The translations under genes and the position numbers were made by a program. Below the pieces are notes generated by a model. The model did not search any database, was not told the DNA's origin, and worked only from the letters and a program-made list of their open reading frames with translations. DNA of 64,000 nucleotides from Tubulanus polymorphus (Eukaryota; Nemertea; Palaeonemertea; Tubulaniformes; Tubulanidae): NCBI RefSeq assembly GCF_964204645.1, contig NC_134028.1, forward strand, positions 6,174,501-6,238,500, in the 5' to 3' direction. Below, in pieces: positions 3,165-57,200 of the stretch. How positions within the stretch are numbered: position 1 is the first letter of the stretch; every line of letters begins with the position of its first letter.

Positions 3165-5920
3165 ATGAAAAATCTATGTTTTTATGGCGGTGTATTTTTG
3201 CTCGCTTTATATTGTGCCGTCGAAACTGTACCATTGTATTTGTATCCAAATTCCGTGCGCCATTTTAGAAATTTCGGCTTGGACCCGGAAGCCAACATGA
3301 ATGCAGTAAGTAGATTTAGGCAATACCAGTAAATGTTTGAGTGTGAGTCTGCTACAATAGAGTAAATATATTATGCATGATATACAAGGACCAGTTTGCT
3401 AGAGTACTGAAATCTGGTTTGCCAGTTTATGGGTCGGAACCCTTTACACTACCATAGTGTACCTTGAGCAAGAAAATTATCCTCATTGTCTCTCCACCTT
3501 AGGTACTAACTCAGTGCTAACTACCATAGCTCAGATGTTACTTCTTCTCAGAGTGAAATAAGAGAGATACAAATTGATAAACATAACAAAGATCACATAG
3601 TTTAGGGGTAATGATAGCAAAGTCTGAGCACATTGATCGAAGTGTACCACAAAGAATGACTTAGAAGAATATACTGGTATGTCAGTTACGTGGTATATGT
3701 CATTGACCTTCTGAGGATATTTCAACTTTGAGCACTTTTTGCGCTGAAATAGTGTTTAAGTCATAATGTGTATGCTGGAGAGTAAAGCCAGGAAACGTAG
3801 ACATTCAGTTATATACATTGTCTTTATAGTCTCAGTTGATAACTAGTAAAGGCTATCCATGCGAGGAATATGATGTTATAACGGAAGACGGTTACATTCT
3901 GACCATTCAAAGAATTCCGTATGGTCGAGGACAGAAACCAGGTCAGTAGAATGTTTGATAATCAAAACTTAATCGTTTGAGGCTAGAACCTGGTCCGATA
4001 TGAATGGTATATAGGTTGCGCTATCACTCCTCGATTCCATAGAAATTCCTTCTAAATAGAAAATGCTTTTAAAGGTGCTTGAAACTCCTTTTATTTGAAC
4101 AAAATGCCCAAAACTCCTCTCAAACTTTTGAGAAATAGGCATTTAGGAATTTTGAAATTAGGATATGAAAGTTGTGAACACTTCCTCAAAATATGAAATT
4201 TTCCTTTTAAAACACCTTGAAAACTCCTTATAGGCCTATCCAGGAATGACTGATCTGTAAACTGACCCCTGATCTGTAAACTGACCCTGATATAGCTTAT
4301 GTAGCTATGTAGAATTTTAATTTTTCTCTAGGTCCAAGAGAAGTTGTATTCTTGCAGCATGGTTTATTGGGTACGTCAACAAACTTCCTGACGAATCTAG
4401 TCAATGAGAGTTTCGCGTATATTCTGGCTGATCAAGGATTTGACGTTTGGCTCGGTAACGTACGTGGATGTACGTACGGCAGACGCCATGTGAAATTAAA
4501 CGTAAAAGATGTCGAATTCTGGGATTTTTCGTAAGTTTGTCTGAATAAATGAGTAAATATTAAAGTAAAGCCTCAGAATTACTATACCAAAAATCTGACA
4601 CTTGATAGTTCAGGACTTAGGCCTCTTTACATTTTTCTATCTTAGTTGGGATGAAATGGCGCTAAAAGACTTGCCAGCGATGATCTCACAAGCTCTAAAA
4701 ATCAGCAATGTTAAACAATTAAATTACGTCGGATTCTCGCAAGGAACTATGATTGGTTACGCCGGATTCAGCAGAAATCAGACGCTCGGCAAACAGATAA
4801 AGAGTTTCATGGCCTTGGGGCCAGTGTCGACTTTGAAATACATCGGTAGTCCACTAAAATATTTTGCCCCAATTGTGAAAGAACGGACGGTGAGTTTACT
4901 AAACCTAAGCTGTTATTACCGGGTAGCTATAGATTATTGTTTGATTAAATTGTGTTGTATTAATTTTCAGTTAGTCGATTGGTTGATTGATCTAGGTGAA
5001 TTCCTGCCAAGTGATGGTGTCATGAAATGGATTGGTAAACACGCTTGTTTATCAGAACTTTCATATGTGTGCGCCGATTTCCTCTTTCTCATTGCTGGAC
5101 AAGACGCCAAACAACTTAATAAGGTAACTTCAAACGAACTTCATGCTTTTTTCCTGAAATTTAATACGGTATTGGTATATGCGTATACCAATAAGGTTGT
5201 TAAACTTTAAACTAGGATATGAATATGATATCATAACTTTTTTGTCAATGGTTACAGACCCGTTTGCCTGTTTATTTGACTCACACTCCTGGTGGAACCT
5301 CGTGGAAGAATATCATTCACTATGGGCAGGTATATTACCATACCTTCACTGAGTCACTGTCATCATCAGTGGATTTTCAAAATAGATTAACTTTGTTCCT
5401 CATTTTTCGTAGGCCGTTTTAAATGGAAAATTCCAGATGTTCGATTATGGAAGTGCGGAAAAAAATATCGCCAAATATGGAACGGTAAATAGTGTTTTAG
5501 ATAAAACTATTCAAACTCATTTAATGTTTGAAAATGGTAATTGATTTTTTATATCTAATATTTCATACTCTGACTCAATTGTTCCATAACATCTGTCAAC
5601 GTCTCCTTGAAATTCATAGGAAATTCATGAAATAGAAGCTTCTAATTTTCAAATTTGATTACTATACATAATCTTTGTGTCATTTTCAGAATACTCCACC
5701 GGTTTACAACCCAGCTGACATGAACGTGCCCGCCGGATTATTCTGGGGTGGCCGAGATCTGCTCGCCGATCCCGGGGACGTCAACGTTTTACTTCCGCAG
5801 TTGAAGAAGGTGATCGCGAATGTACCCGTACCGTCGTTTGAACATTTGGATTTCATTTGGGCGGTGAATGCCACCGGTTTCGTTTACATGAAAATCATTG
5901 ATTTCTATAAGCTAATGTGA
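3165..5920 (+). CDS. acid lipase A (lysosomal acid/gastric lipase family)
   Basis: Secreted or lysosomal alpha/beta-hydrolase that cleaves triglycerides or cholesteryl esters at acid pH (family knowledge). Exons: 3165-3305, 3830-3941, 4332-4530, 4646-4889, 4971-5123, 5258-5329, 5413-5484, 5690-5920, giving 407 residues against about 399 for human LIPA. The start codon opens a hydrophobic signal peptide ([19 protein letters not shown]). Oxyanion-side motif LQHGLLG precedes the nucleophile elbow GFSQG (Ser182). The presumed catalytic Asp354 lies in [10 protein letters not shown] and His383 in FEHLDFIW. The [10 protein letters not shown] block and [11 protein letters not shown] are also typical. 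One oddity is RGCTYGRRH, with Cys where the family usually has Asn. The gene is a tandem paralogue of the next one, with the same intron positions and phases. Lysosomal versus secreted location, and the preferred substrate, cannot be read from sequence. Confidence 0.95.
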
Positions 5921-7577
5921 TCATATGATCTTCGATAAAAATCTCTCTTCACAAGTATTTAAGATCATTGCAGATATTCACCAAAAAAAACAAGTAAAAC
6001 TGATATCAAGTTCATTTGCAATTACGTGACCATAGTGTCAAATTTTTTCACTCAACCGTGGAATTTTTAATGTCAAATCCTGTACTTCTGAAAAATCCGG
6101 TCCTAAGCATTACGAAAAATTATTTACACACAAGATTTCATGGGTATCGAAAGAATCTAGAAATCGTAAGAAAAGTTAAATGTGCTATTTTTTATGAAAT
6201 GATTAATGAGATGAGCAATGCTATGTACATCTAGTTTTTATTATTTACTGTTTACGATAAGTCTTGAATCACTGGAGCCAGTTCCATATTTGTTGGTTAA
6301 AAGATTGAATGAATTCAAACTCCACAGCGATTTTACCTCATGACTGTGGAACTGGCTCCTACATTTAACCAGTATTCTATTTTTTACATGAAATAAAGTA
6401 TATGTATTTTATCACGGCATCTTCTGATAATTTTATGAAAATTCTATTCCATGTTGGTGCTATGTTATATCATGATATGGTATATATATATATATATAGT
6501 TTATGAAACATTCATACAATGTATTTTCTATGTGTAGCTAAATGATTATGGTTCTGAGTTTTAATGAAAAAGTATTTAAAGCACATCAATGAACGAAATG
6601 AGGATTATGCATTTTCATGTACGCTATGTTACAATTTTATGAATAATGGATGCACCTTATGTACTGTATGTTATGTTGTCATTGTTTGAAAAAATGTATG
6701 CTTGGGATAACACTACCATTGGACTGTAGGATGGATGTATATCGTTGCTACTTCAGTAACTCAAGGGTCAAATTTAACTCAGAACTGTGGAACCGGGCTC
6801 TGCTGATTGCATATTCTTGAAATTCATTCAAGTGGTCAAATATGTTTGATTAAAAGATGGTTAATAAACGTCAGATAAGTTCATTTGTAACGTGTAGCAC
6901 GCTTGTTTTATTTGATTGATAGGATCTCAAGTGCTCGACTGCAGGAATAAGAGAAAGGCATACATTTCTAAATAACCAAACCTGAGTCATGTTTAATTTA
7001 GAAAGACAATACAAAGGTACCTGGTGTTGCTTAATTTATTTGCGAATTGCTGTATTGCGTCAATATTGACAAAGTTAATCACTATCAAGACTTGATAACC
7101 TGTTACAGTTTTACTGATAACATATTTCAAAAAGCTGTTATTGTTCCGCTTTTTACTTGTATTAAATCTTCAAGTTTCTTCTGCTTCTTTATTGTATAGA
7201 ATATAGCAGAGTCTCCTATAGTCTATGATTATTGGAACCAAATGAATACTGTTATGAATCATGGAATTAGGATAACTACGCTTAGAATGGTTTGTATATA
7301 AACTAAAGCACATGTTCCTGCTTGATATTACTGTATTTACAGTGAACTCAACAAAAAGGACTCATTGTTGATAAACTGTATGCAGGTCATATGTGGGGCA
7401 TTTATGCAATTACTAATGAAGATTTATATATGAAATCTAATGACGTTTTTGTCCGCTGACATTCAATAGGTCACATGACTAACTTTATCATATCATCGAG
7501 AGAGACAGATAACATTTGTTTTGTAGTTCATTTGTGTCAAGCTTCTAGTCACTAGCTGAGCATTTCTATGCCTTAGA
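5921..7577. other. spacer between tandem lipases
   Basis: AT-rich DNA holding the lipase A 3' UTR and the promoter of lipase B. A short TA run lies near 6481-6499. An inverted pair built on GGAGCCAGTTCC and GGAACTGGCTCC at about 6267-6360 looks like a small degraded repeat. No gene seen. Confidence 0.5.
6392..6397 (+). terminator. candidate polyadenylation signal of lipase A
   Basis: AATAAA about 470 bases after the stop codon, preceded by a gene-free AT-rich stretch that fits a 3' UTR. Other weaker signals exist nearby, so the real cleavage site is uncertain. Confidence 0.35.
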
Positions 7578-10525
7578 ATGCAGATTTTTCATGTTATAAC
7601 AAGCTTGCTTATTTGTATTTCAAATTCAGCAGGAAGGTCGTACGTTGAAACTGGCACTACCTTGAAAATATGGGAATCGTTGCGAGAATATTCAGAAATA
7701 CTGACAAAGTCTGGTTTAACAATGACTCAACAGACTGCCGATGACTTTGTCAGACTGATGAGAAAATTTCATCGAATTCAAGAAAGTCTTGCAGCTGATG
7801 GACTAATGAATGGGATATTGAGTGGAAAATATGATCCGGATGTGTTCAGAAATGCTGTAAGTCTCTATCAACTTTAAACTCCTTCCTTGTTTATTTTTCT
7901 GTCTTGAAGAAACAGACCAAATGTCATCGGAATACTTACTCATTGGTTTGTTCATTAAAGATGTTTGAATATTGGACATAATTCTTTATTTTGATATTCC
8001 TTTAGAGTCAGCTTATCACAAGTAAAGGATACGTGTGTGAAGAGCATACAGTTGTAACCGAGGATGGTTATATTTTAGGATTGCAGAGAATTCCTCATGG
8101 ACGCCGCTCTCACAACAGATCAGGTAAAATCTTGGTGGGAAAATTTGATATCATTCATTTATCCTCATCAATATGGTTGGGAGTTTAACTTTTTATTTTG
8201 AACACTTCTGTGGAGTGAGGTATTTACCATGTAGTTAAAACGTGTACATATGTATTGTATTTTGTTATAAGAAATTGAAGGTCACTATGATGAAATATAG
8301 ATAAGTGAAAATATTTATTCAAAAGGCTAATAATAACCCTTAAATGAACTACCGGGTACTTATTTCAAATTTTGTCCAAAGAGAGTACCAGTGCTGAAAG
8401 TTAGAAATGGTGGGGAAGTTGCCATTAGCTCCTATTCATATGTTTGAAAGCGAAATCGAACTGTCTCGGGACAAGATGATTTTGTGAAACTGATTCAATT
8501 TTTGATTTATTTTCTGACAGGTCCTCGTCGAGTAGCTTTTCTACAGCATGGTTTACTGGCCAGCGCTACCAATTTTCTGGCAAACTCGGCGAATGACAGT
8601 CTAGGGTTCATGTTAGCGGACAATGGTTTCGACGTGTGGCTGGGAAATGTACGAGGCAATACTTATTCGAGGAAGCACAAATATCTCAATCCTGATAAGG
8701 ATCACGCGTTCTGGAATTTCACGTGAGTTTTTCATGATTATCACATTTCAAAAATATGATTTCAACCCAAACCAATTTTGTATTGATATATGCTCAAATT
8801 TTCCGTTACTATAAGTAAGATGACCGCTGAAGGTTTTTTCAAGAAAAAACCGGTGAAAATCAGAATTTTAAGGTTGCTTGGGACTTCAGATTATTCTCTG
8901 CTTTGTTTATCAAGGGCATTGAGTTTGTCGGGTTGTCTAGCATCACCAAGTGGGCATGATGTCCCTGGACCCCTAGTTAATCTTTGCATTTTTCAGCTGG
9001 GACGATATGGCCTCCAAGGATTTACCGGCAATGCTGGACTACGTGCTGAAAGTAACCAATCAGACACAGCTAGTATACATCGGTCACTCACAAGGTACAA
9101 TGATGGGATTTGCGGAGTTCAATCGGAACAAGGAACTCGCAGAGAAAGTGCATACTTTTGTCGCTCTAGCTCCTGTAGCCAACATCAGCAATATGATCAG
9201 CCCGATCAAAGATATTCTACCATTCGCTCATGAATTAAAGGTATTTCTACTTCGAAGATTGTGATAGTACATGTATAGTTCATTCCGTTTTATATTGAAA
9301 TGATGGGAAAATGTGATTTTTTAAAATAATTGCAGGTGATTTATGAATTGTTTGGCACTGGCGAATTTTTTTCCAGTTCAAAACTGATAAAATGGTTTGT
9401 CAGAACAGCATGTAGAGAACCTTGGGTGGAACTCTGCGAAGATTTCATATTTCTGTTGGCCGGATTTGATTTTTCTCGCCTGAACACGGTATGTAATTCA
9501 ATTTTCTATTACTGCATCAAGTCCAAAGTAACATCTAGATGCAAGTAACCTGAATGAACTAAGTAGATAACACAGAAAGCCTACATTGTTATCCATAAAG
9601 GATGTCCCATTGATCACACCTGCCCTTGAAGAAATTTGTCCACTTCCTTACTACCCCCTCCCATTGTCCACAGTAGTCCAAAGTTCATAAACCCCTCGAC
9701 CTTGGACGTTTTTTTCTTGGACGTTTTTTTCATTTTCCCTTAAACTATCAAATTAGAAAATAAACATAGAAATAGTCACACAGTATTTGAATGAATCTTT
9801 CAGACAAGGATTCCAGTGTATCTGTCTCATACTCCAGCTGGAACATCAGTAAAGAATATGGTTCACTATGCACAGGTAAAGATGGGGTCCTTTAGTTAAA
9901 ATTTGACCGTGGATCCTGAATATGTTATATCTACGTAATTTTAACTCAATTGTCAACTCTTCAATTCACAACTGGGAGACTCCTGGGTCCAGATGTTCCA
10001 CATTATAAGCCTTTTTATTCGCATTATGAATCAGATACGGTTTCTTTTCTAAAGGCAGTGAAATTAAGACAATTTCAAATGTATGATTACGGAATGGAAG
10101 GAAATATGAAGATTTATCATCAGGTAAACTGCTGAAAATAAAGGGAGTTTAGAGATACAGGATTTGCAGACTAGCAAAACTTTTCTGGTGCATCTGGGCA
10201 CACTGCGATCATAACATGACACCATTATTTGCATATGATTCACAGACAATGTAATTCGATATGAATTGTATATTTCAATTTTCAGATCACTCCTCCAATT
10301 TACAACGTTTCTACGATGAAAACTCCAGTTGTTTTATACTCGGGAGGAAAGGACTGGTTGGCAGATCCGACAGATGTAAAGCGTTTGATTCCACAACTCA
10401 AAAATGTCGTTCGCAATCGTTTTATTCCGTCGTACAACCATCTCGATTTCATTTGGGCAATTGACGCTAATAGGATGGTCTATGATGATTTGATAAATTT
10501 TCTCAAAAGGTCTTTGCTACACTAA
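7578..10525 (+). CDS. acid lipase B (lysosomal acid/gastric lipase family)
   Basis: Paralogue of the upstream acid lipase with the same predicted ester-hydrolase activity. Exons: 7578-7856, 8006-8123, 8521-8722, 8997-9240, 9336-9488, 9804-9875, 10055-10123, 10286-10525, giving 458 residues. Exons 4, 5 and 6 have exactly the same lengths as in lipase A (244, 153 and 72 bases), and all phases match. Signal peptide [18 protein letters not shown] is followed by about 70 residues before the common SQLITSKGY block, so the N-terminal pro-region is much longer than usual. Catalytic elements: LQHGLLA, GHSQG (Ser231), [10 protein letters not shown] (Asp402) and NHLDFIW (His431). The second half of exon 1 is rich in charged and helix-forming residues and resembles nothing I recognise. 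All catalytic residues are present, so the enzyme is probably active. Confidence 0.95.
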
Positions 10526-16576: not shown

Positions 16577-19500
16577 ATGTTGAAGATGGGCCGATTTTTT
16601 ACCATATTCATTGTGTTTTGCCTCGGTGTTTCTTCAAGTGAGTAAAAAACCTGCTAAAAACGTCAACCCATCACAAACCGTACATCGAAATTTCAAAATA
16701 TCAGATGATCATTTTTCAGGAATAACATGTGATGAAGAGCTAGCGCCTGTGATCGTAAACCAAGCTAAGGACAAGCTTGCAGTGCCTAATACTGATGTAA
16801 CCTTCAATTGTTATGTCAAGTATGGCCATAATTTTCAGGTAAATTCAAAATCCTTCATTTCACATTTTACAATTTCTTGATTCTCAATACGTTGGAACCT
16901 CGTTATGAGAAACCCAGAGTGACCTTTCGGCCTATAGGCCTATATAATAATTTATCAAATAGCTGCCTTAATCAAAAGTTTTATCCCTATTAGCACTGAC
17001 TAATTGATAGGCCTACCTGAAAGTGCTGCAGATAATTTTAAAAATAACCAAAGATTTGTGTATTTCATGTTTCGGTTTTTTTTCACTAGGTTGGTTGGTT
17101 TATGCCAGAGCAGAATTTGCAAATATCAAAAAATGCCATTATATTCGCAGCACCACAAAATCAATATCAAGTAATTGAAGTCAGAAGAGATAAAGGTATT
17201 GGGATTTATAGTTCTTTACTTCAAATCAGGCCAGTTTAATAGTCAGGGCTTACGCTTAAGACCATGTTAGTTCTATGGAGCCTCTATCAACTTAGGAACA
17301 GTCTTAAGATTTAAGAGAAATTTTGGACTTAAGTTTCGATTATGGAACTGGCCTCGAGGGGTTCAAAATGTGGGACGGCCAATGCAGGTCCCATTAAGTA
17401 TCCAATTTATAACAGAATGATGAAACCATTTAACAAAGCATCAGTTCAGTCCCAGATTATTATATTTTCAGAAAATATCATTGAGTGGAATTTGTTGATT
17501 AAGAACGTTACAGATCACGATCATGGACTTTACGAATGTAGAATATTAGGAATGACGAATATTGTGCAACAAAATCGTTTACGCATAAAAGGTACATCAT
17601 TAGCATTGTAAAATAGCCGTAAATGTAAAATCTAAAGTAACGTATGTCGGTCTGAAAGATGAAATAATTTATCAAAGATTGACATCAACTGTAATAAGTT
17701 AAGACTTGATGAATATCATAAATTTAAGAACTTAAGAATTTAACAGAAGTTTTATATATAAAGTTTTATTTTTCAATGAATCAATGATATCCACAGTCTA
17801 CAATTGAGACTTGAGTATAAAAAGAGAACACTTTACGATGACCACATGTACCCTTACCCGTAGGCTAACAGATTTTGAATGCTGCAATTCTTCTTTCAGG
17901 AATTGTAGTGCCTGGACGTCCAAGAGACGGTGAATTCAACAAAACTGGTATGAATGATGATAATCCACTTTGCATTGAAACTTTTTTAATTTGAATATAT
18001 TTTTCTGGTACCAGAAATATTGTCATTTTCTTGTTCGCAGTTTGTTGTAAAGCGTTGAACGTTTCTAGTGCGTGTATGAACACTTGCGCGTTCGCCGCCT
18101 ATCCGCTGCATCGGACTCGGTGTACGGCAAATGATTTGGAAAAAATGCTTAAATGCGGCACCGACCACGGAAACCATGTTAGATGTTGTCTACGTCGAAG
18201 AGTCCATCCGGATTGTTATGATTTATGCAGCGGTAAGGTGACTTCTTTGCGAAGCCACCACAACGTTTGCATGAGAGACATTTTTGACATCGCGATGTGC
18301 CTCGAAGAAGGCCAAGGTCAGTGTATGAGCTGTTGTTTTCATAAATTGATAAATGCCTTGGAATTCATTCAAGATTTTAAGTTTTGGAATAGTACTGTAG
18401 ATACCTTGACTTAGCTTTGCCTGATCAAGCAATGAAGCAGTATAATCTAGCTTCAGAGGAACTATTGATTTGATGAAAGTTTGTTGTTTTCGAGCATCGT
18501 TTGCCTTAGAAAAATTGAATATAATGATGATATAAGGTGGCCACTTACCTGAAAATCAGGGAATTTTCTTTTCTTTACAGAATTAGTGAATAGTCGAGGT
18601 GAATGTTTTAGATAGTTAGATTTCTTGTATAATCAAACAGTTCTTGTCTGTCTTAGACATGTCAATGTATTTGACTGTGTAAATTGATTGGGATTCTTAG
18701 CAAAAAAGTTAGGGAAACAACTTGCATGTCATGGAGGTTACAAATCAAGTAGAAGTGGTCACTCTGTGATATATTATTTTCTAGTAACAATACCGAGCCA
18801 GCCTCTAGATGTATCTGCGCAAGGTTTAGGCGATACGTCCGTCCTGGTGAACTGGTCTCCACCCGCGAAGAATGCCAAAATGGTTACCGGATATCGAGTT
18901 TTCTATCAACAAGTGATGCCAGACTCCACTCCGATTCCTGCCATTCCTCCTGCCATGTCGGTGAGGCGCTAAGATTACATTAAAAAAAACAAGAAAACTA
19001 ACTCGAAAGTTTATTGACACCTTGGAAAATAAATTGTATATTTTTATTCATTTATAATTCAGACTTCCATCCTGAGTAATGATACAAAATTTGCAGTATT
19101 GACATCGCTGAAAACCTATCAGCGATATTTGGTACATGTGATTGCTATAGGACCGCATGGTTCTAGTAAGCCGTCCACACAAGTTGAAGTAGTCGCGTCC
19201 AAAGGTATATATGAAATGAATCCCTGAATGAGGAAAAATATGAGGTTCGGAAATTACTTACTGATATCGATTTTTTTTTCTCCAGGAAATGTAGATAAAT
19301 TTCGTCCAGGTGGTTCCACAGTAAAAGGTACAAAAATCTGTTCGAGACACTTTCTGAATGTTCTTTTGAAAATCACTGTATAGAATTCGTTTTTGTATTT
19401 CCTATTTCAGACTGTTGTGTTGCGAAAGGAATGACACAGAAGTGTATTGATTACATGTGTGGAGGACCTGTTAATACGGCAGACATTGATAGTTATCTGT

Positions 19501-22500
19501 CGTGCACTGGTGAAGCTCATAAAGCTTATCAATGTTTTGCGGGTAGGTTGTTACATCGACATAGAAAACATGGTACTCCCATTTTCCTTGATTACCAATG
19601 CCAACGAAGATGATTATCAAGGATTTTCTTTGAATCTGGTTTAGTTGATGAAATGGCAGGGTCTAATAACTGTATTCCACCTCAGTATGTTGAATAACGG
19701 TTTATTGTTAGTTGATAATGTTTAACTGTGTTTGACAGGTCATTTTTCACTTAAGATAAAAACTAATTGCTAATTACATCAATACACAGCGGTGTGATGT
19801 ACTACACCATGGTACAGTGTACTAGCAAGTCCTTCCCTGATTTATACACCGCACTGCAGTGTAGATGCTGCACTGAAAGGGTTAAATCAAAGCTTGTAAT
19901 GAAATAAAGTATTCAATCTTTCATGTTCAGTTTTCGTTAGACTAATCAGACATTTAACATTTGAATACCATATGTATATTGTATATTTATGCAGGTAATC
20001 GTAACCATACGTCTTGTTGCGCGTTGATACCCGGTATCGTTCCGACGTGTTTAGAGTTATGTAGTGGAGCGCCACCTACGTATGATCTCAAACATCTCGC
20101 TTGTTTACCCAAATTCGATGAAATCAGTAATTGTTTCGCGGAAGGATTAGGTAAATGAAACCGAAATTGTCTGACCGTGAGGACCTCTAGTTTAAAGAAT
20201 GATTTTCAACTGAGCGTAAAACAATATTTTATTGAATTCTGTGGTATTTGTTTTTCTACCAGCCTTGTTGCCGGGACCACCGATCAGAGCTTACGTCAAT
20301 AAAATCGACTTTACTGAAGCGTTAATCCATTGGAGTAAACCAACGTTGAATGCTGACCGTGTGAATGAATATATCGTCAAATACCGACTGAGAAGTTCAT
20401 CGGAGTCCTATACGCTGGTAATGATTATCAAACATAACTGTCTTTAATTCTTGTCCCCCCAGGATCCAGGAGTTAGATTTAATTTCAATCATGTTGAACT
20501 TAAGAGTCTTAAGTGATTTATCATGAACCATACAACAGAATCAGTTCCACCAATTCAAATATAACTCATAAATGGGTCCAGAAGTCGGCTATGAACATCA
20601 ATGACAGTGTTATTGATGTGTCACATATGCTCGGAAAGAATAAAAATTTTTAGTTCAACTTGATTTTGTAGGCAACTACAGTGAATAGATATATCCAACT
20701 GAAAGATTTGAAACCGGACAAAATGTACGAAGCAATGGTCGTCGCTGCTAACAGTAAAGGAGAAAGTATACCAACTTCAAAACTGATTTTCTTAACCCAC
20801 GGCGAAACAGGAGGTTAGTGTCATACTAGCAACTCGATTGTAATTCTGAAATTCATTGTTAAATCATTATGATATTGAATATTGAGTGGTATAAGATATT
20901 TACACTGGACGAATCCAATTAAGCGTTTATCTGAGAGTAAACTACTCTATTGTTTAATGGATCGTCCAAATTGGGTGAATTAAATCAAATGTGCGCTTAA
21001 TGTATTTTCAGAAACAGGCACCATGAATGCGACTAAACCATTCGCAAATGATAATACAACTGGTAAGTAAAGACTGACATTTTCATCCCTGCCTATACCT
21101 ATCGAGGAATGTCTTTGAATATGAAATCATCAACTGCGGAGTGTGGTTTAGATGTGTCTGTTCGCTATTTAATTCAGATATGGCACCAACAAGCCCTGTG
21201 AATGTGCGTATTGCTAGCTCTGGTGTTGACGCCCATTCAATATCAGTTGTGTGGGACAAGCCACGCTACGCCCCGTATGGTATTACACAATACAGAATAG
21301 AGTGGTCTATGGACGAAAATTTCTTTTATTCCGTAAGTCCTTATAATTCTTTGTAAACTTGTGTGTTGTGAGGTAAACTTGAGTAAAAATGACGCTGAAG
21401 TTTGAATTGTCATTTCTTGAAAAAACGCAAAGAAATCAAGCGAAATTGATTAAAGAATTTTGGGTTTTTTTTAATGCAATACAGTCCTTTTGTGTTTTGG
21501 CATCACAAAATCATATTGTTGAAGTCATTGAGAATCAATGAGAATGTTGCCCTTGTTTTTGAATGTTTGCAACTAGCACCTGTAAATTTTATCTGTACCT
21601 ATAAGTATGGTAACTTATATCTCTGTATCAACCATGTTGTTTATTTAGGCTAATACGAAGTTGACTTCATACAAAATCCAAGGATTACAACCGTCAACAT
21701 CTTACAACATAAGACTTATTGCTATTAACCCGAAAGCTGAAAGTTCACCATCCGATATGACTCAGCAAATGACTCGAGGTAAAACCTGTCAGCTCAAATA
21801 GAAACGAACCAAACATCACTGTCAGTTTGTCTTGCTTAATCACCTCATAATGTTATGTGTGTTTATATTTCTAGATGGGGTAGTCGTAGTTAAGCCTACT
21901 AATCCACCGCCGATACAAAGTTTTAGCGGTTAGTATAAAACAACAAACATATATGACTTGTGAGTTAAATTAGTCTGATGAATTAGTACATTTTCAATCC
22001 AGAAATATGAACTGCATCGAGTAGACTTGGCTTTAATAGTTACCTATCTAATCGATTCACTCATTTGAAAATCATCCATATCTTTACTATCATCATCATG
22101 TTTATCATCATGGACTGAGGCCTGGTAGAGGCCTATTGATGTCCGACTCGTTTGGTGATTGATATCAGTTTAGGTGACAGGGTTTCTATAAAAGTTCTCT
22201 AATTCAGATAAGTAGTAAATTCCCAAACTGGAAGTTGCCATTTGGCTCCAAACTGGTGAAAATTTAATTTCCAAACTTCAGCGACTTAACCCTGGCGTAG
22301 GGCGGCTCCGCTTCTGCCAATATCTTGTTGCGACGCATTCTCGCCAACAACGATAGCATCACAAAGCCTTGATGACCTACACATCCTTGCTGCTGCTAGC
22401 GACACCAGTGGCAACAAGCTGTACATGTTCTGCTCTGACCGACATTTAGTCAACCTATGCGCCCATTTGCGACCAGTTGTAAATCATCATGTCGTATAGC

Positions 22501-25500
22501 AGGTCTTGCTACGCCGCAGTAAGGTTGAGTGCACTGTGCATGTGCAAAATATGTATACCAGTAATACCAACATGGTGTTAGTGGTTGCTCACTCGAATGT
22601 GAAAATAATGAACGATGCTTATTTTTTAGATTGTTGTAATAAAAGTGGTGTTAATCCAGCGTGCGTGCCGTTGTGTGAAGGAAAAACAGTATCCAATGTC
22701 GTTCAATGCTCAAAAGACTTGGATAAAATCGTCATATGTCTCTCAGGTACTAGGAGGACTAAGTAATAAATACGTAAAAAAATTCCACAATAAGTCCAGA
22801 AAAAGACAAAAAGTTCTTCTCTGATTCATCATTGTTTCTGGTCTTTGCTTTAAATTACTTTAAGTCGAATTCACTTTAAAACTTTTAAATTAATTGCCTC
22901 CTTGAAATATTTTTATCTTTTTCTGGAATTATTGTGGGATTTTCGATGTATTCATTGTTCAATCAAATTATGGCCTTCTCAACCTAAGTTATAAAAATTG
23001 ATTATTGAAAAAACTTCAAACATAGTTCTAATTCCCATCCATAACTGTTCCATTTTTATGGTTACAGACAGGCGTAACCATGACAGTTGTTGCAATCAGA
23101 GACATGTACCGAGTGTTTGTTTACCGTACTGCCATGGAAAGTCACAGGGTAACACGTATGCTGCTGTAGGCTGTATGCTACACATCGATTCTATGCGATC
23201 GTGTTTCTTTTCCAACTACTGTAAGTATTTTACCTAAGCATATTATCAACCCGATAAGGATTGAATTTTGTAGATACATATACTTTCAAATTCCATTTGA
23301 TTCCAGATGATTTGCCAACTGCACCGGAAGAGTTTGTAGTTACGTCAGTAGGCGTAAATAGTCTTACATGTTCTTGGAAACCACCTGCTAGCAATCAAGT
23401 CGGCATCAAGTACATCTTTTTCTACAGAGCTGACCTCTTCTATAGCAGATACACTGCCATATCGGTAAATTATTTCAATTAGCTTATAATAGAGTCCGAT
23501 AAAAGTAGTTCCCACCATTTTAATCACATCTAAGAATCTTTTGTTTAAAAGAATTGTACACTTATTTGTTTCAATATCCTATATAAGCAAATAGATTATT
23601 CATTATCATTATTATTATGATTATTATTATTACCATTATTATTATCATTGTTAACCTTTCCTGCTTCTTGTGGTTCAAAGCAGTTTTCATGTAAATTTCT
23701 GAATGTCACCTTATTTATCATTCAGAATGCAACCAGTCCCATGACGTTGAAGTATCTTTACGGAAACCAATTCTACGAGATTTTCGTCATCGCTCACAAT
23801 AATTTGGGTTCCAGTTTGCCCTCAACCATGGTCCGTGTTAGAACTCTCCAATACTGTAAGTGTCTCTGAAATCATTGAAATACTTGAATTCCGTGTTCTC
23901 TATATGCTGGAATTTTAAAGGGGCTGCATTCATTGTTAAGTGTAGTTAACTGCTGAAGTAGCAAGGTTTTCGATCACCCCTCTAAAATTTGTTGTGGAGG
24001 ACACTGGAATTGAGTGGAATTTCCAAGTGAGAAACAATATGTGGTAATCAAACTTCATACACTTTTTGAATAGCATCACAGAATATTCGAGTGAGCCAGA
24101 TACCGTCTGGTGTTGTCAGACGAGGCCAAGATGTGACATTAACCTGTCATATTCTAAATCCGCAATCAACCACATATTTGAAGTGGCAGTTCCAGCAGGA
24201 AAAAAATCCAAAAGTAACTGGTCAAGTCGGTGAAAATTTAGAACTGGTTTTGAAGTCGGTGTCCGGCAAGCAGGCCGGCTTGTACGCTTGTTCCGAACTA
24301 GATGATAAAGAAGCTGTGATAAATCGTATCAAAGTAAACCTTGAAGTCAGAGGTACGTTTGACTCAAAATTAACAACCGCTTTTTTCAAGAGTTGCTCTG
24401 CCTAAGTCAGATAGATTTGACTTATCATTAAGATACCTAATTTGTAAGGACTTTCACATAAGAATTAGTTTCTTGATAAGTGATGCAAAAAGTTCAATAC
24501 AGTAATAGTGGCTTTAGACCATAAGCACCTCATAGAATGACTAAATTACAAAAGAATTAATTACAAAGAAAACTTTTTTCCTGTGCCTTTATTTTAAAGG
24601 TATATACACTAACTGCTGCATAGACTACATCGGTGTAGCAGGTGTATTGCAAGTATTTTAAAAACTTTAGAATTTTAAAGTGAGAGTCAAATTTCACGTC
24701 ACTGGAACTGCATCCTGAAGTCTCATCTAGTGGCCCCTACCTGTTGATCCATCAGCAACTTCTTTTACTCCTTTCCTAGTCCTAGAAGCAATAAGCTTAT
24801 TCCTGTTAAGTGATGACCTTTGAAATTAGTTGTTGTGTTCTTGTTTCTTCTCACAGATACACCAGAAGTTCGTATGGATGGTGTTGAAAAAGTCGGTGTT
24901 AATGAAGTTACCACTGCTGTCGACTTTATTTGCCATATCTATGGATCACCGACAACCGTACGGTGGTTTTCCGAACCGCTCGGAATTGAAATAAATTCGC
25001 GAATGAATCACTTCAGCCGTTTCAACCGATTAAACCATGATGGCGAATTTGAATCGTGGCTCGCAATTCTCGGAGTAACTCCAAAAGATTTCGGCATATA
25101 TAAATGTGTGGCATCGAATGAATTCGGAACAGCAACTGGGCGATTTCTTCTGTACGGTCAGTACCATTCTCACTTGCATTGTGTTGAACCCTTTCTACCG
25201 ACTGAGTATCACTCAATGGCCAAAATCTTTTACTGGTTAACCCTTTCAGTGCGCGGTGCAGTGTATAAATCAGGGATGGATTTTGCTAGTACACCGCAAC
25301 CACGCTTTTATCTATTGAAAGATGGCAGCCCCTGTGCAACAAAGTGAAATATTAGTGATTAACAATACACTGCACTCTAGTGTAGAGGCACTAAAGCAGT
25401 GTGCCTGCTATTCAATGCACTGGGATGGAATTTTTCTAAATTTTCAAATAATCTCCAGCACTCTCGGGTATTGATTAGGCACTGATAGGGCTTTAATGTA

Positions 25501-28500
25501 ACTTCATGTATTAAGAAACTGACAATTTTCATATGAAATTTGAGACTTCTTTCTGTCAATTCACTATGTTCTTGTCTTTGAATTGTTGCTACATACATAT
25601 TTGAAGTATGTTTCGTAATAATTTGTTTAGATGAAAACGGCAACGTAACTGAACCAGCAGCAGAACCTGTTCTCAATGTAAGAGGTATGCATTCATTACA
25701 TTTTACCGTAAATTGGTGAAAACATACGTAGATTATAAGGGACAATAGTGGTGGGTTTTTAAATCTCAATTTGTTTACTCTATAAGAGTCACCTCTGCAT
25801 AACTCATGGTCCGATGATGCGAGTACCATTAGCTTTAAAAAATTTGCATTTACGTAATTGTCAATTTTCAATATAGCCTGCTGCGAAAAGAGAAACGTGA
25901 CTGCTGATTGTTTGGACGCTTGCACGGTCGACATCGATGCTACATTTCTACAGGATAACTTCAACAAATGTGTCAACCACGTGAACAGCGCTATTCTATG
26001 CGCTGCTGGTAAGTTAGAAACGACATAGCAATACGGATGATATATTCATAAATTATCTTGGATGTTACACAATGTATTTTTGCAGATGGAAAAGATCACA
26101 GCAGTTGTTGTAAGTCGATAGGAGTTCCATCGTACTGTACGCATTACTGTTCCGGTCATCCTGTATCTTACAATAGAATTCTTGACTGTATGATGTATAT
26201 GAGTAAGATCGTTAATTGCATGGAGCAAGGACGCCGTAAGTATTTGAGTTTCCTTCTAAAATGAAGTATAAACAAGGGAAAACTGATAAAGGACAGTCAT
26301 TCTTGTGTGTTGACACTTTTAAAAGGACCTGAACTCGTTACATCCCAAAAGGGCCCTTTGACGTACAAAAAGGCAATACATTTGTATAAGGTCACTTCTG
26401 CACTGAGGGGCAAACTGTACACTTCCTAGTGGTTCTATCTTGACAGAATGCACTTTGATATCCAACAAGGCAATATTAAGTTTACTCCTGCACTGAAATG
26501 CACCAATCTTTGGTTGAGAAAATGAAAAAGGGCTCTCAAAAAAGACCTGCGCAAGTCTCCCAAGTCCCCCCTGGATCGGATGTAGAATAACCGAAACAGA
26601 GGTTATTGACTTATTCTAATGTAATCATTTATCATTATGTATTTCAGATATTCTACCGTCTAAACCAAGAAATCTACGAGGAAACGCAGAAAATTCGGCC
26701 ATATTCATCGAATGGGACGTGCCAGCCAATCAGCCGGGATATGTACAATATTACCTGATATCGTATAAAGCTTACGTTCACAGTCGAGAGATTGATGAAC
26801 AATTGAAAGTGGTAAGCGGAGTAGATTTCAATGACAAAAATTGTAGTATACTCCTTGCCACCAAGGCAGACAATATATGCGTTTATGCCATTTTTAGCCC
26901 TGGAGAGAATGTTAATTGATAAGGGAGAGGTTGAGGAAGATCCAGCTGCCATCATTACTCCAAACCCATGAACCTATGAATTGGGACCACTATATATCAA
27001 AGACAGTCCAACTCTAGGGGCTCTAAAACCTCTGAAACTTCCTAATACTCTGTGTACTCTTGACAACTACGGAAAAAATTGACAATTCGTGTATCATTTC
27101 AGGGGCGGTCGCTGAAGATGTATCGAATCAGACACCTGATTGCTGGAATCAAATATTACATCTCACTAGAAGCTGTCAATCATTACGGACGCAGTCATCC
27201 ATCTGATACCTTGATTATTTCTACACTTGGTATGTGTAAACCGTTCAGTCAAGCTGTCGACTACTAGTAGATATATTTTGAAATAAAATGGTACAGAATA
27301 GGTTCTCGGGCTTCCATGAGATCCTGAGTCTCATCCTGTTTGTCTGTGTGGGTGTGTCTGACTTTCAGCTACTCAGCTTCGTTAATAGTGGGTCGATTTT
27401 GATGAAACTTTGTTACAATGTTAGTATGGGGGTCTGGTTCTACAGTGCAAAGAATGGACATCACCTAGTGGCAGAACTAGGCACTAAAAACTGTTTTTCA
27501 GCGACATGACCGTGAAGATGACCTCATAACTGAGGAACTGGGTCGAAATTCAAAAAGTTGTCTCAAAAAAATTTAGCTATTGGCCTAGATACAACATATG
27601 CAAAATGCAATGGAAGCTAATGCATGGTAAATTTCAAGCCTATGGCTTGTTTTGATTTTAATAGTGTGCATGTTTTAATAGGTCCAGATCCGCCAAACAA
27701 TTTAAAAGCTGCTCTGAAACCCGACGGAAAATCTCTAACATTGACATGGAGCGGGCCTATCATTGATGACGTAGATATTCAGAAGTACATAATCTATTAT
27801 TACCCATCTGGTTCCAGAAATCCTCTCACGGTAAGTTTACAAATATCTGGAGGCTTGAATTGAAGTAAATTTAGGAATCTGTTGAATCTTTTGATACAGA
27901 AAATAGAGTTGAATGATTATATGGGTTCCACCAAGTATTCATTAAGACTATTTGATTATTCTTGTAATCAAATACATTAACCTGAAGAATGTATTAATTA
28001 TTTTTTTTAGCGGACAGTAGATGCTACGGTATATTCATTAGTAATTGATCATCTGCTGCCTCAGACCATTTATTACATATATATGAAATCTGCAACGAAC
28101 GAAACAAAAAGTGGACCGACAAATACCATTAAGATAACATCAGGGGGACGATGGTTTTACGATAGTACGTATCATTACGTCAGTCTCTCAAGCCATTTTG
28201 GTTTTGCTAAAATTTTAGGTTTAGTTGCGATCTTTGTGTTTTCAAAAAAGGCCATCTCTCCTTTTTCCGGTGATCAACGAATTTGTTCGTTCGAGGACTA
28301 ACGTGTAATTTTCTGATTTTTCATTGTGATGTGATGTTTTTCAGAAAGTAACCCGGGTTTGGCTATTGGCCTCGGTATATTCATACCACTGTTGCTTGTG
28401 GCCATAGGACTTGTTGGCATCTTCTATTACTACAGGTAAAAATCGCTGTTCTCACTTGCAATACTCGTCATATGTTTATCTACATGAAAAATAAACAAAA

Positions 28501-29028
28501 TAACATTAAACCTTTCGATACGGTTTATAAATCGGTGATAAACTTGCTAGTACACCACATTGCTTAAATTGTCTTTAGCCTTTGCATTAAGATGCTCTCT
28601 CAGGGACATATCAAAGCAATGATTGTTCATTGGGGAATATAAAGAATAAGATTTATCCGCAGATCTGTGGAACAATGGGTCCAATCTCCATATGAAATAT
28701 AAGCTCATCCTTTTCTATCATTTTCAGAATGTACAAAAACGCACCACCGAAAGAAAGCCCGGTATCATTCGAGAATCCGGCGTATCGTCCGCGACAAGAA
28801 GTCATGCCGGACGGCGGTGGCACGATGATGCCACCGCCGTCGATCGGCGTGTCGTCGGTACAAATCAGTGGCATCGGCGAAAACAATATCGATCAACAAC
28901 CGATCGGTAATAATGCAGTCGGGGATCCGAATACGACAATGAATCCGTACGCGGAATGTGATCCTTATCATCAGCTAGATCAAAACACGCAGGAACAACC
29001 GGCGCCACATAATTCATCTTCTGTGTAA
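16577..29028 (+). CDS. type I membrane protein with Ig, FN3 and DB cysteine modules
   Basis: Exons: 16577-16637, 16720-16838, 17090-17195, 17472-17591, 17900-17947, 18041-18316, 18785-18960, 19063-19204, 19286-19327, 19411-19542, 19995-20150, 20263-20417, 20672-20813, 21012-21062, 21178-21332, 21649-21778, 21875-21928, 22630-22746, 23068-23220, 23307-23464, 23726-23855, 24074-24352, 24857-25156, 25631-25684, 25877-26008, 26086-26235, 26648-26811, 27103-27229, 27682-27830, 28011-28164, 28345-28435, 28728-29028; 1507 residues. Order: signal peptide (1-20), Ig1 (about 30-135), DB1 (152-243), FN3-1 (244-349), DB2 (364-459), FN3-2, FN3-3 (to about 670), DB3 (689-778), FN3-4 (to 874), Ig2 (875-967), Ig3 (968-1067), DB4 (1086-1179), FN3-5, FN3-6 (to 1377), one transmembrane helix, tail of about 100 residues. 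Ig plus FN3 plus DB is the layout of nematode proteins such as C. elegans C25G4.10. No function is known to me; adhesion or ligand binding at the cell surface is inferred. A second in-frame ATG at 16586 is possible. Confidence 0.9.
16720..17591 (+). other. Ig-like domain 1 of the receptor (exons 2-4)
   Basis: Carries the Ig disulfide cysteines in FNCYV and LYECRI, with the core Trp in VGWFMP and the DHGLYEC signature. It is split by two introns, unlike Ig2 and Ig3, which are single exons. Confidence 0.85.
18041..18316 (+). other. DB module 1 (single exon)
   Basis: Twelve cysteines in the pattern CC-C-C-C-C-CC-C-C-C-C, i.e. two similar halves, each opening with a CC pair. This matches the DB domain first described in nematodes. 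Unlike the other three copies, both halves are in one exon. Confidence 0.8.
18785..19204 (+). other. FN3 domain 1 (two exons)
   Basis: Typical FN3 features: IPSQPLDVSAQ at the start, the core Trp in VNWSPP, YRVFY in strand C' and YLVHVIAIGPHGSSKPS at the end. A phase-0 intron lies in the middle. Confidence 0.85.
19411..20150 (+). other. DB module 2 (two exons)
   Basis: Same 12-cysteine pattern, with the halves CCVAKGMTQKC... and SCCALIPGIVPTC..., each in its own exon. The intron holds a piggyBac-like repeat. Confidence 0.8.
19660..19885 (-). mobile_element. piggyBac-like TTAA MITE, copy 1 (receptor intron, truncated)
   Basis: Read on the minus strand it opens TTAACCCTTTCAGTGC and then follows the same internal sequence as the copies at 25237 and 36223. 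The far end is degraded, so the left border is approximate. Confidence 0.65.
20263..21778 (+). other. FN3 domains 2 and 3 (four exons) with a mini-exon linker
   Basis: FN3-2 (20263-20813) has GPPIRAYV, IHWSKP, YIVKYRL and YEAMVVAANSKGES. FN3-3 (21178-21778) has SPVNVRIA, VVWDKP, YRIEW and YNIRLIAINPKAESSPS. The 51-base exon 21012-21062 links them. Confidence 0.85.
22630..23220 (+). other. DB module 3 (two exons)
   Basis: Halves CCNKSGVNPACVPLC and SCCNQRHVPSVCLPYC plus the later cysteines give twelve in the same order as the other modules. Confidence 0.8.
23307..23855 (+). other. FN3 domain 4 (two exons)
   Basis: LPTAPEEFVVTS, CSWKPP and FYEIFVIAHNNLGSSLPS are FN3 hallmarks. The intron contains an ATT/ATC microsatellite. 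Confidence 0.8.
23601..23652. repeat. ATT/ATC microsatellite
   Basis: Imperfect run of ATTATTATT and ATC units within a receptor intron. Confidence 0.85.
24074..25156 (+). other. Ig-like domains 2 and 3 (one exon each)
   Basis: Ig2 (24074-24352): cysteines in LTCHI and LYACSE, Trp in LKWQF. Ig3 (24857-25156): FICHI, VRWFSEP and IYKCVASNEFGTATG, an I-set type ending. Both exons have phase-1 borders. Confidence 0.85.
25237..25496 (+). mobile_element. piggyBac-like TTAA MITE, copy 2 (receptor intron)
   Basis: TTAACCCTTTCAGTGCG at the left and GGCACTGATAGGGCTTTAA at the right; 260 bp, no coding potential. TTAA borders with CCCTTT-type ends are typical of piggyBac-related elements. Confidence 0.7.
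25877..26235 (+). other. DB module 4 (two exons)
   Basis: CCEKRNVTADCLDAC and SCCKSIGVPSYCTHYC start the two halves; twelve cysteines in total, in the common order. Confidence 0.8.
26318..26580. mobile_element. GGATCC-end dispersed element, copy 1 (receptor intron)
   Basis: Shares ACATCCCAAAAGGGC, CACTGAGGGGC and AAGTCCCCCTGGATC blocks with the elements at 30607 and 47442. The left end is decayed, so borders are approximate. Confidence 0.6.
26648..28164 (+). other. FN3 domains 5 and 6 (four exons)
   Basis: FN3-5: ILPSKPRNLRG, IEWDVP, YLISYKA and YYISLEAVNHYGRSHPS. FN3-6: PDPPNNLKAAL, LTWSGP, YIIYYYPSG and YYIYMKSATNETKSGP. FN3-6 is followed by a short juxtamembrane stretch. Confidence 0.85.
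27465..27620. repeat. dispersed repeat shared with the cadherin intron at 61160
   Basis: Blocks such as GGGTCGAAATTCAAAAAGTTG and AATGCAATGGAA recur in the same order at about 61160-61330, in an intron of an unrelated gene. Its class is unknown to me. Confidence 0.6.
28345..29028 (+). other. transmembrane helix and cytoplasmic tail exons
   Basis: Exon 28345-28435 encodes a hydrophobic helix (LAIGLGIFIPLLLVAIGLVG) ending in the stop-transfer FYYYR. The last exon encodes a Pro-, Asn- and Gln-rich tail with FENPAY (an NPxY motif), MMPPPS and the terminal residues NSSSV. Confidence 0.85.
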
Positions 29029-38670: not shown

Positions 38671-41600
38671 TCATGTCACAGCCGGATTAATACTGCCGCA
38701 CAGATCTCCTCCCGATACCATGTCGATACTCCGATGATCAATGATATCTTTCAGAGTTCCTTTCTTGTCCAGATCCGCTTGCACCGAGCCGTTCTTCTTC
38801 AGTATGAACGGACTGAAGCGTTTCGCCGGCGTCGTGTCGACCTTCGAGGCCATCGATGACGAATCGTCGTCGCTCGGGTTGATGATCACCGGGTCGCAAT
38901 CGTCGTCGTCCTCGTCGTCCATCTCTGACAGTTCCTTCGCGCTGCACGTCGGCATGTCGACGGGTATCGTCGCGTGGAACCGCGAATAGTCGATCTGGTA
39001 CTCGCCGTTCTCTTTCTGGAACGTGACGAGCCGCTCGAACCGGTGGCCCCAGACGATCTCGCCGGGCAGGTACGAGCTGCGCGCCTGCGTCGTCATGCCC
39101 GTCGACTCGACGATGCCCTCGAGTATGACGATCAGTTCGAATTGCTCGCGGTGCAGGTCCTCGACGGACATCTCCCAGAACGGACTCTCCTCGGTGATGC
39201 GGTGTTCGACGATCACCGGCCAGACGAGGAACAGCCGATCGCGGCCCTCGTCGAAACCGAAGTCGATGTCGATTTGTTCGAGCGGCAAAATCTCGCCCTC
39301 TTTCGTCATTTGTTTTTTCACCAAGGCGCCGCGTATGTGCGCCTCTATAATATGCGAGCGTCGCATGTCGCCGACGCGGAACAACAAACACATGACGCCG
39401 TTTCGTTTGCAGATCACCGCGTTCTTGCTGAACATCAACGTTTCGGCGCGTTTCTTCGGACGCGACAACTTCGCGAACACCAGACCGGTCATCAACGCCT
39501 GGATGATCACGCCGCAGCACGACTGCATCATCATGACGAGCACCGCTTCCGGGCAGTTCTCGGTCGTGTGCCGCGAGCCGTAGCCGATCGTGTGCTGCGT
39601 TTCGATCGAGAACAACAACGCCGACGTGAAGTCGTGCACCTGGTTGACGCACGGTTTCCACTCGTCGTTCTCCCAGTTCTCGAGGTCGCCGTGCGAGAAA
39701 CATATCAGCCACCAGATCATCGCAAACGCCAGCCACGATGCGATGAACGCCATCATGAACAACAGCAGATTCCAACGCCACTTTATGTCGACGAGCGTCG
39801 TGAATATATCGGCGAGGTAGCGTCGTCGGCGTTTCTTGATGTTCGTGTGCGAGATGTTGCACTCGCCGTTCTTGTAGACGAGCCGTCGACGCATGCGCTT
39901 CGAGTGCTGCCGGTCGCGGTGGTGCAACGGCCCGTTCGGCGACATCACCGGATAGTTGACGAACTCGGAAAACGAGTCATGCGAGCCGTACGCTTGACTC
40001 GACGTTTGCGAGACGAGTTCCATCTTGGAACCGCGCGAGTCCATCGTCACGAGCAGTTGTTGTTGCGGAGGCGTGTGCGCGACGCGTTGGTTTTGTTGAG
40101 CCGTCAGAAGGTGTTGCTGGGCATCGATATAAGACGGCGGCGGCGCCGACAGGAAATCCGATGAAGCAGATGATCGTTTCTTCCTCAATAAGTCTGCAAA
40201 GACAATCAAGTTGTCAATCAGTTAATAATCATTGAATAAAAAAATTGAATAAAATACAATTTTTAAGTTCGATTTTACCCTTTCAGTGAGCGCTTATTCA
40301 ACTGCTACAGTATTTCTACACCACAGTGCGGTGCATCGCTAGCTACTAATATTTCACAATGTTTAACAGGTGCTGCCATCTTTCGGTAGAGATAAGAGCT
40401 TATTATTAACATATAATCACAGCAATGCAGCGTATAGACTGCAGTATAGACTCACTGAAAGGGTTGAACTGGACTGGCACGGTGGATATTTTGCCCCTCG
40501 ACCCGGATTTATACTTGACGTGTTGTCGTGTTAGAATAAATGACAAAATAAATGGATCGTAAATCGTGTGCCGTTGTAAGTCAAAGAAAATCCGGTCCTG
40601 CCTAGAAAATCTCAGATCTAAAATTGCTTCAGCGATATACCCAAATACATACCACCTACTCTGAAAATAAATTCACTGCAAACCAGTCGACGGGAGGATT
40701 GGTATCGTAAGGTGGGCGGTTCGGAGAATGCTGACTGAACAATTGTGGGAATACGCCATATTTAAAAGAAGTTAATAACCTTATTGACGACGATGTTTAC
40801 AAATATCGATAAACCGTGTACTGGAGCGGATGATTATCAAATTGTGTCGCGCTGAATTTATCAGCAGATGAAATTTCATTCCCGACACGTACTACAAGTG
40901 TCATTAACGCAAACACTTCATATTGATGCAATTTACGAAGACGATGTCAACAAAATCGCCTGAATTTCAATGAATTTTACAAACAACGTAATCGAGTAGT
41001 TTTCTTCATTTTCAAACGCTGAAGTATGGGATAATCATTCAGGATTTTTTTTCCGTTTAGTAGCCAAAAGCCGGAATCTAGGACTTCTAGCAGTCAGAAA
41101 ACACATTTCCGACAGAAAATACGATTTTCGTTCCGCTGTACCAATTAATTGTGTCAATAATTATTTTTTTTTTCAATTTTTTTTCTTTGTTTCCACGTGG
41201 CGTCCTCTTCTTTTTTTCAGTATTGCGCACGTTTTGAATGACTTAAGATTTATTTATGATTTTTCTAAGCGCGTATTGTTGTCATCAGGCTGTTAGATTA
41301 TTTATCGCTACCGAGCATGAAAGAAAAATTCTTGGATCGAACGAATTCTTTACCGGTTAGACTGCCTGTTTTCACAGACATAACAGTCAATAACCTTTAA
41401 GCGACAGTCGATCCTAAATTTAGGTCGAGAAAAAACTTGTTCAATAGTTTGCTGCGTAAATTCATAAGAGCACGTGCGCGTTAAGTGATAGCAACAATCT
41501 TTAGATTAGTAACAGGGGCGGATCTAAGAGGGGCCAAAACAGCTCAACCCCCCCCCCCCCTTGTATTTTTTTGACAAGATAACATCTTAGGAAATTTACA

Positions 41601-54203: not shown

Positions 54204-57200
54204 ATGAGGAAACCGTATAAACCACAGGTGGAAACTGTTCTTCCATTTCTCATTATTGCAATATTTTGCATCTCGTCGGCGTTTGGCCAACAACCAACAG
54301 ATGGTGAGTACGTGACCAATTCGGTCACCAAAAAACAGTTCCATCGGTATTCACTGGCACAGGAACTTGACACAAAAGGATTTTGACCACAGTATCCTAG
54401 GTACTATATATAAAAAATATATGAAATAATGTTTTTATATATAGTACCTGGATACCCTGGGGTCGTCAAGTCCTTGTCGCCGTGTGCCAGGAGGCGGCAC
54501 GGCATGATCCCCGATCTTAAAATTCTAACCTACGCTAAGGACGCAGAACTTCCACATTTCTAGTTTAAAACTTGGACCTTTAGATCGAAAATAAGTTAAC
54601 GGGTTAATGCCTGACGAACTGATAGGATTAATTGCAATGCGGAACGGATAAGCAATAAAGATAGAATTGGATTAGAAACTGACAGTGGCAATCGAGTTTA
54701 CGGGCAAGCCGTCCTTCTTCGATACTTCGTCCCATTTTTGAATTTGACAGATGATGAATAATTACTCGTGAGATCGAATTAAACACGCGTGAATCATGGA
54801 TAAATGAAAAATAAGTCCCAGAAAAAAGTGAAGAAAGCCCCAAAAATATCTTATTCTAGAAACTCAAAAAGTCTACTGGAATACCAGCGGATTTAGGCTA
54901 AAAAAATTGATACCTTGTTTCTCCGCTCTGCTGAGCTTATAAAAAGTTGACCCTGCAGGCGGCCTATCTACCCAACACATTACTTTTTTTAAAAATCGTG
55001 ATCAACTTTACCATGACAGACCTGGCCGTTATAGAAATGTACTGGTTACAAATTTTATCATATTTTACAAAAATGACCCAGTCTTCTGCGGAGAAACAAG
55101 AAGGTATTGTTTTGTTTAGCCTTATAGACTGATCAAGCTGGTATATGCCGTATCATTACCTCTTTAGGCTATAACCCGGGGGTTAACTTGATTCATTTTC
55201 AATAGAGTTAGCCCGCGGGTTACCTGGGCTCAGTTTCACAAAAAAGTTAAACTCAAATTTTTGGTGTAATTGCCATTGGTTACTTCATGTTTTAAGATAA
55301 GTCTCGCAAGAAATTCCCATTTCCAAGAAATTATGAGTGGTTCACGCGAGTTCTTAGTACACGTAGCTACGGAGCGCCGCGAACTGGCCACTCTCAGGAC
55401 TGGGTGATTGCAGAGCAAGCCATTGGCAAAATATACAGGAATAATGCCGCATTGGCAAAATATTACCTGCCTTATATTATCTATTGCGGCATCGGCAATT
55501 CCACCTCACCAACCCAGGCATGTTGTGATTGGTGGTGGCTCCAAATTCAAAGATTTGACACAGTGCACTAGGTACCATCAATTCACCAATTTGTGGTGTG
55601 TGTTCACTAGATGAACCCTTTCAGTGCTGACTGATCAATACCTTATATGCCAGGCTATGCTGCCATATTTTGAATGATTCATAATGATTAGCTTTCAGTT
55701 ATGCTAAATTTCTTTACAGCTTGTGATAGGTACTCGCTGGTAGGTGGCGTTCCGAAAAAACAGCAATTGGGTACTTTGACCTTGAGAGTATTTGAAGCAT
55801 CTGCAGCAGGTAATGAGTTCTAGGGAAATATTTCCTTCAAAACTGGAACAGAAAAATGTTCGAATCAACCTTACTAGCTGCAGCATATTGGAAGGCTACA
55901 GATCTCCCTTGATGCAAAGTTCATTGATTAAGCAAGCTTAATAAGTTAGGACCCAAAACCACAGGGGCCTGACACATTTTTGACCCCAGATCCTAGGTAC
56001 TATATATAAAAGAACATATATGATTAGACGAGAAGACACACAATATCCGTGTATGATGATAACGAGAGAAATCCTACAGTAACGAAGCCAAGATTGAAAA
56101 ATTCTATATCAGAATGTATATATTTGAGGAGCAACGTTTCGGCTATCGACTGTTAGCCATCATCAGGCATACTGATGATGTACGCCTGAGTATGCCTGAT
56201 GATGGCTAACGGTTGTTAGCCGAAACTTCGCACATCAAATATAATAATTCTGATATAGAATTTTTCAATCTTGGCTTCGTTATTGTGGAATTTCTCTTGT
56301 CAACATGTATGATCTTTTTATATAAGCTTTACTGGGGTCAAAAACTTTTTGTGTTGGGCCCCCGTGACCAAAATAACTCGTTTTAAGTATTAAAAGGGCT
56401 GTGTCTGTTATGAATATCGTGTCAATATTAGAAAATTGATCTATGTTCTATATGTTAAATTCGTAGACTTGCAGAATGCGGCCGCGACTGATGACAGATA
56501 TCGTAGTGAGCTTTTTATCTGGGGCAACTTGAACAATCAGCCACCTGCCATAGCCAATCTCACGTTATCGGGCGGAACAACAGATTTCAAGCCGAAAGAT
56601 TACTTTACCATCATCACCGACCCTACCACAGGGAAAAAATATTTGAAACTCAATGCACCGATAGATCGAGTAGGTTCATTGGAAAACTTTGATGTCTCGA
56701 TGATATCAGGGGCCAGACTCATTCGATACAATCTATAGTTCACCCATTGAGTATTTACCAGATACGCTAGGCTTATGCCATCCCAAGTTCTTTAGATCGT
56801 TGTCGATTCAAATTATGTTCAGGTATCCGCAAAAAAGTCTGGTCCTATGAGGGTTAGTTGATAGAAGCTTGACTGACTAACAACGCTATACTAATTCTTC
56901 CATAATTTCAACTATTCGTCCATACATAACTTGTGCAAAAAATCTAACAGTGAATCTAACAGGCTATGTTCAAATACTTGCGTGAAAGTTTTCAACCTTC
57001 AATTGATTGATCTTGTATTTTCTCGCAACGAATTCATTGTTGATTGTCAATTCAGGATGACCTCATTACTGGTGTTAACACTGTGGAGTTCAATATTAAT
57101 TGTCGAAAGGCCGGTTCATCGCTGCCAGTGGTAAGTGATGATATTCTATTCAAGAAATTGATATACAGAACCCCCCCGCCCCCCCCCGATATACCGTCCA

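Follow-up and report, generated by a model that had tools for sequence, protein, structure and literature searches.

Among described proteins, the closest in domain content to the receptor gene analysed here are IGDB-1 (T04A11.3) and IGDB-2 of C. elegans, Ig/FN3 membrane proteins that are named for their Ig, FN3 and DB domains. IGDB-2 reportedly binds the ligand-gated ion channel LGC-34, to go by the title of a 2017 paper from Wang et al. It has been described as an Ig/FNIII protein that acts as an antagonist of DAF-6 in the formation of glial sensory compartments (PMC8221789); knock-down of igdb-1 leads to longer life and healthspan (PMC10751425). In Brugia malayi, the igdb-1/igdb-2 orthologue Bm2376a is a 1477-aa membrane protein with Ig domains, FN3 domains and numerous sites of N-glycosylation (PMC10187950).

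The DB module itself, according to the InterPro text quoted in PMC11702694, has no known function and co-occurs with Ig, FN3 and lipases. It is also present in the nematode protein Dao-2, in whose description no Ig domain, FN3 domain or membrane helix is mentioned (PMC4826884). The DB proteins in the literature that was found are nematode proteins throughout and mostly of unknown function, in agreement with the preliminary description of the present DNA, in which DB modules were said to be known mainly from nematodes.

Exon organization of the receptor gene

A gene for an Ig/FN3/DB receptor was rebuilt on the forward strand at 16577..29028 of the window, by which we mean the whole 64-kb stretch of nemertean DNA that was analysed. 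Its 32 exons join into a coding length of 4524 nt (1507 codons plus stop) with no internal stop codons, and all 31 introns are of the GT-AG type, with lengths of 77-701 bp (median 251). The preliminary description had arrived at the same single frame of 1507 codons over 32 exons, and the rebuilt model is identical to it. The features are as follows.

16577..29028 (+), whole coding gene, 32 exons, 1507 aa (rebuilt exon model)
16577..16637 (+), exon 1, signal peptide MLKMGRFFTIFIVFCLGVSS (exon model, hydropathy)
16720..17591 (+), exons 2-4, first Ig domain (exon model, Pfam)
17900..17947 (+), exon 5, short linker ahead of DB1 (exon model)
18041..18316 (+), exon 6, DB1, both halves in a single exon, 12 Cys (exon model, Pfam 47.9 bits)
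18785..19204 (+), exons 7-8, FN3-1 (exon model, Pfam)
19286-19327 (+), exon 9, linker before DB2 (exon model)
19411..20150 (+), exons 10-11, DB2, N-half 19411-19542 and C-half 19995-20150 (exon model, Pfam 43.9 bits)
20263..20813 (+), exons 12-13, FN3-2 (exon model, Pfam)
21012..21062 (+), exon 14, linker without a DB after it (exon model)
21178..21778 (+), exons 15-16, FN3-3 (exon model, Pfam)
21875-21928 (+), exon 17, linker before DB3 (exon model)
22630..23220 (+), exons 18-19, DB3, N-half 22630-22746 and C-half 23068-23220 (exon model, Pfam 53.3 bits)
23307..23855 (+), exons 20-21, FN3-4 (exon model, Pfam)
24074..25156 (+), exons 22-23, second and third Ig domains (exon model, Pfam)
25631-25684 (+), exon 24, linker before DB4 (exon model)
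25877..26235 (+), exons 25-26, DB4, N-half 25877-26008 and C-half 26086-26235 (exon model, Pfam 54.1 bits)
26648..28164 (+), exons 27-30, FN3-5 and FN3-6 (exon model, Pfam)
28345..28435 (+), exon 31, membrane helix (exon model, hydropathy)
28728..29028 (+), exon 32, cytoplasmic tail with NPAY and C-terminal SSV (exon model; motifs read from the sequence)

As rebuilt from the DNA, the 32-exon model is an intact single gene. The Ig pair in the middle of the protein (exons 22-23) could start a second protein, so that the model would have fused two adjacent genes, for example one encoding Ig-DB-FN3... and another encoding Ig-Ig-DB-FN3-FN3 followed by the membrane helix; yet the frame is kept through all 31 introns, there is only one signal peptide and one membrane helix, and the first part alone would have neither a membrane anchor nor a stop, which makes such a fusion extremely unlikely.

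The exons that encode the linkers, the DB pieces and the last two Ig domains are in phase 1 on both sides, and each of the FN3 domains is interrupted by one phase-0 intron. The symmetric phase-1 exons fit growth of the receptor by exon duplication and shuffling.

Predicted architecture and topology

The domain order of the receptor is signal peptide-Ig-DB-FN3-DB-FN3-FN3-DB-FN3-Ig-Ig-DB-FN3-FN3-membrane helix-tail. Pfam places fn3 on six stretches (E 3e-60) and Ig_3 on three (77.7 bits), both above the gathering score, and DB (PF01682) on four, with 148 bits combined, so the earlier count of four DB, three Ig and six FN3 domains holds in full. The single DB modules, which had been recognized from their cysteine-bearing exons, score 47.9, 43.9, 53.3 and 54.1 bits against a curated cut-off of 25 bits, and the whole 97-position model is covered. 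Every DB module directly precedes an FN3 domain and has a short linker exon in front of it (exons 5, 9, 17 and 24). A linker of the DB type also lies before FN3-3, which has no DB (exon 14, 21012-21062); this place may mark the loss of a DB module. Pfam gave no match in the receptor gene to the GDSL lipase domain, a known partner of DB.

Besides the N-terminal signal peptide, a hydropathy scan found one strong membrane helix (aa ~1383-1404), as the preliminary description had proposed. The ectodomain carries 13 N-x-S/T sequons; the cytoplasmic tail of 100 aa contains NPAY (aa 1424-1427) and ends in SSV, and no enzyme or catalytic domain was found in it. The nemertean protein is thus predicted to cross the membrane once, in type I orientation, with an ectodomain that is built of modules and rich in cysteine. 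Some nematode DB proteins have been reported as excreted/secreted or vesicle proteins, and the receptor gene could by analogy encode mainly a secreted matrix protein, with the membrane exon skipped and the DB-FN3 arrays used as a structural scaffold, but the strong membrane helix and the 100-aa tail are encoded in frame and a mainly secreted form is accordingly very improbable.

Composition of the DB module

All four DB modules contain the 12 cysteines that had been noted earlier and that are conserved in the Pfam DB family, to which six disulphide bonds are ascribed; they stand in the order CC-C-C-C-C followed by a second CC-C-C-C-C. When the six-cysteine pattern was sought in six frames of the window, it occurred at eight sites, and all eight lie in the DB exons, which argues that the DB finding is not due to chance. 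A phase-1 intron separates the two halves of DB2, DB3 and DB4, while those of DB1 share one exon.

The halves also resemble each other in sequence. Compared as profiles, the four N-halves and the four C-halves matched at P 2.4e-7, and when the non-cysteine columns were permuted with the cysteines held fixed, 0 of 200 trials reached the real score (best 22.8 versus 32.8), indicating that the likeness of the halves exceeds their cysteine spacing. Each DB module is, on the strength of these sequence comparisons, a tandem pair of six-cysteine halves, and the exon layout of the receptor accounts for the twelve-cysteine module as two six-cysteine units.

For one DB half, AlphaFold2 was given an alignment of all eight halves; the resulting model consists of three helices (mean pLDDT 84.6). 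Foldseek found no match to this model in the PDB, a result that says little given a query of only 49 residues. The model of the whole DB1 module is less certain (mean pLDDT 66.6), its N-half being poor because MAFFT placed the N-halves onto the C-half, and with this model Foldseek returned chance matches only (E 3.8 or worse). Sequence searches of the PDB likewise gave no credible DB relative; a match to endonuclease IV (E 1.1) was rejected as chance.

Relationship to IGDB receptors

The domain features of the IGDB receptors recur in the nemertean protein: Ig, FN3 and DB domains are found together, behind a signal peptide and with one membrane helix. IGDB-1 and IGDB-2 are nematode proteins, whereas the present receptor is spiralian, and they are likened to it by their described domain content. 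Bm2376a has Ig and FN3 domains, a membrane location and many N-glycosites in common with the nemertean protein and is of similar length (1477 versus 1507 aa), but it comes from a different phylum and its DB modules go unmentioned in the table of PMC10187950. With Dao-2, described without Ig, FN3 or a membrane helix, the receptor shares the DB module. Because the gene model, the Pfam domains, the single membrane helix, and the domains and size like those of Bm2376a point the same way, the nemertean protein is very probably an IGDB-type single-pass type I receptor encoded in a spiralian genome.

Dscam-type and other Ig/FN3 adhesion receptors, like the one described here, combine an Ig and FN3 ectodomain with one membrane helix and a tail end of the PDZ-binding kind; they differ in that they are not known to carry DB and have an Ig tandem followed by an FN3 tandem in place of the order alternating with DB. 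A spiralian adhesion receptor of this general kind could have gained DB independently by exon shuffling, in which case it would be IGDB-like and not an orthologue of IGDB-1 or IGDB-2. The DB halves and linkers, as phase-1 symmetric exons, are indeed movable between genes, but all three domain types and the single membrane helix are shared with the nematode receptors, the length is near that of the Brugia orthologue and, within the limited sensitivity of the search described below, the genome contains no donor DB gene elsewhere; independent gain is considered improbable.

Of the preliminary interpretation, the part that stands is that of a receptor-like Ig/FN3/DB membrane protein. Its suggestion of an undescribed adhesion or signalling system is not supported, since IGDB-1 and IGDB-2 have been named and partly studied in nematodes (PMC8221789; PMC10751425; PMC10187950; PMC11702694). 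What the present gene contributes is a spiralian member and a view of the double make-up of DB; the kind of receptor was already known.

As an IGDB-type receptor, the nemertean protein would have an ectodomain that forms a long chain, with one Ig domain at its tip, an Ig pair in mid-chain and four disulphide-rich helical DB modules, and whose most likely task is to bind partners located on cells or in the matrix. The protein's short tail may work via adaptors, with NPAY leading to PTB proteins or endocytosis and the C-terminal SSV to PDZ proteins, two motifs so short that they could be there by chance. It is possible, if tentative, that this receptor shapes the contacts of supporting cells (glia or epithelia) with neurons, a tissue role transferred from one worm paralogue, IGDB-2, over a great evolutionary distance. 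Somewhat doubtful is the wider proposal that the IGDB receptors form a family of ancient origin in protostomes (or in a wider group), often present as a single copy, in which DB arose from a tandem-duplicated six-cysteine helical exon and a role in glia-neuron compartments is ancestral; if true, that ancestral role could be tested in a spiralian.

Genomic setting

Ten Hox genes form an intact cluster on one strand of contig C6 (~316 kb, C6:5318228-5634753), and we take them to be of the lab, pb, Hox3, Dfd, Scr, Lox5, Antp, Lox4, Lox2 and Post2 types. Types Lox2, Lox4 and Lox5 are marks of Spiralia. On C5, a Cdx-like gene is separated by 20 kb from another homeobox gene, and the two perhaps belong to a ParaHox cluster. 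An exact SL1 was not found in the genome and, with the spiralian Hox types, this rules out a nematode origin of the genome that contains the receptor. A mitochondrial COX1, sought as a marker of the species, was not found. The genome being spiralian, the receptor kind is extended to Spiralia: a complete IGDB-type gene in this group means that such receptors are not confined to nematodes, and it offers a second lineage for testing their role.

The genome (268 Mb, 77 contigs) was searched with the DB family, all four DB modules and the whole protein. DB matches occurred at the receptor locus only, and no second DB gene was found at a sensitivity that is limited, as the DB family search recovers 3 of the 7 DB exons of the receptor and misses diverged half-exons. 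A 30-kb cluster of frames at C1:8394550-8425139 has weak similarity to the FN3 domains of the receptor. GDSL-esterase frames of ~506 aa and equal score occur on several contigs (e.g. C1:1678534, C6:11155697 and C8:6253248) and are probably copies of a transposable element that carries an esterase domain.

Within the 64 kb of the window, no tRNA or Rfam family was found, and nothing suggests that the receptor and its neighbours form a cluster of joint function. Upstream of the receptor is a tandem of two gene pieces for acid-lipase-like alpha/beta hydrolases (4599-9264, +). Downstream are a gene for a Kir potassium channel with IRK and IRK_C domains (38671-40221, -; 516 aa, largely one open frame) and, at 56394-61808 (+), a gene of the cadherin type in which 61365-61808 encodes a cadherin repeat.
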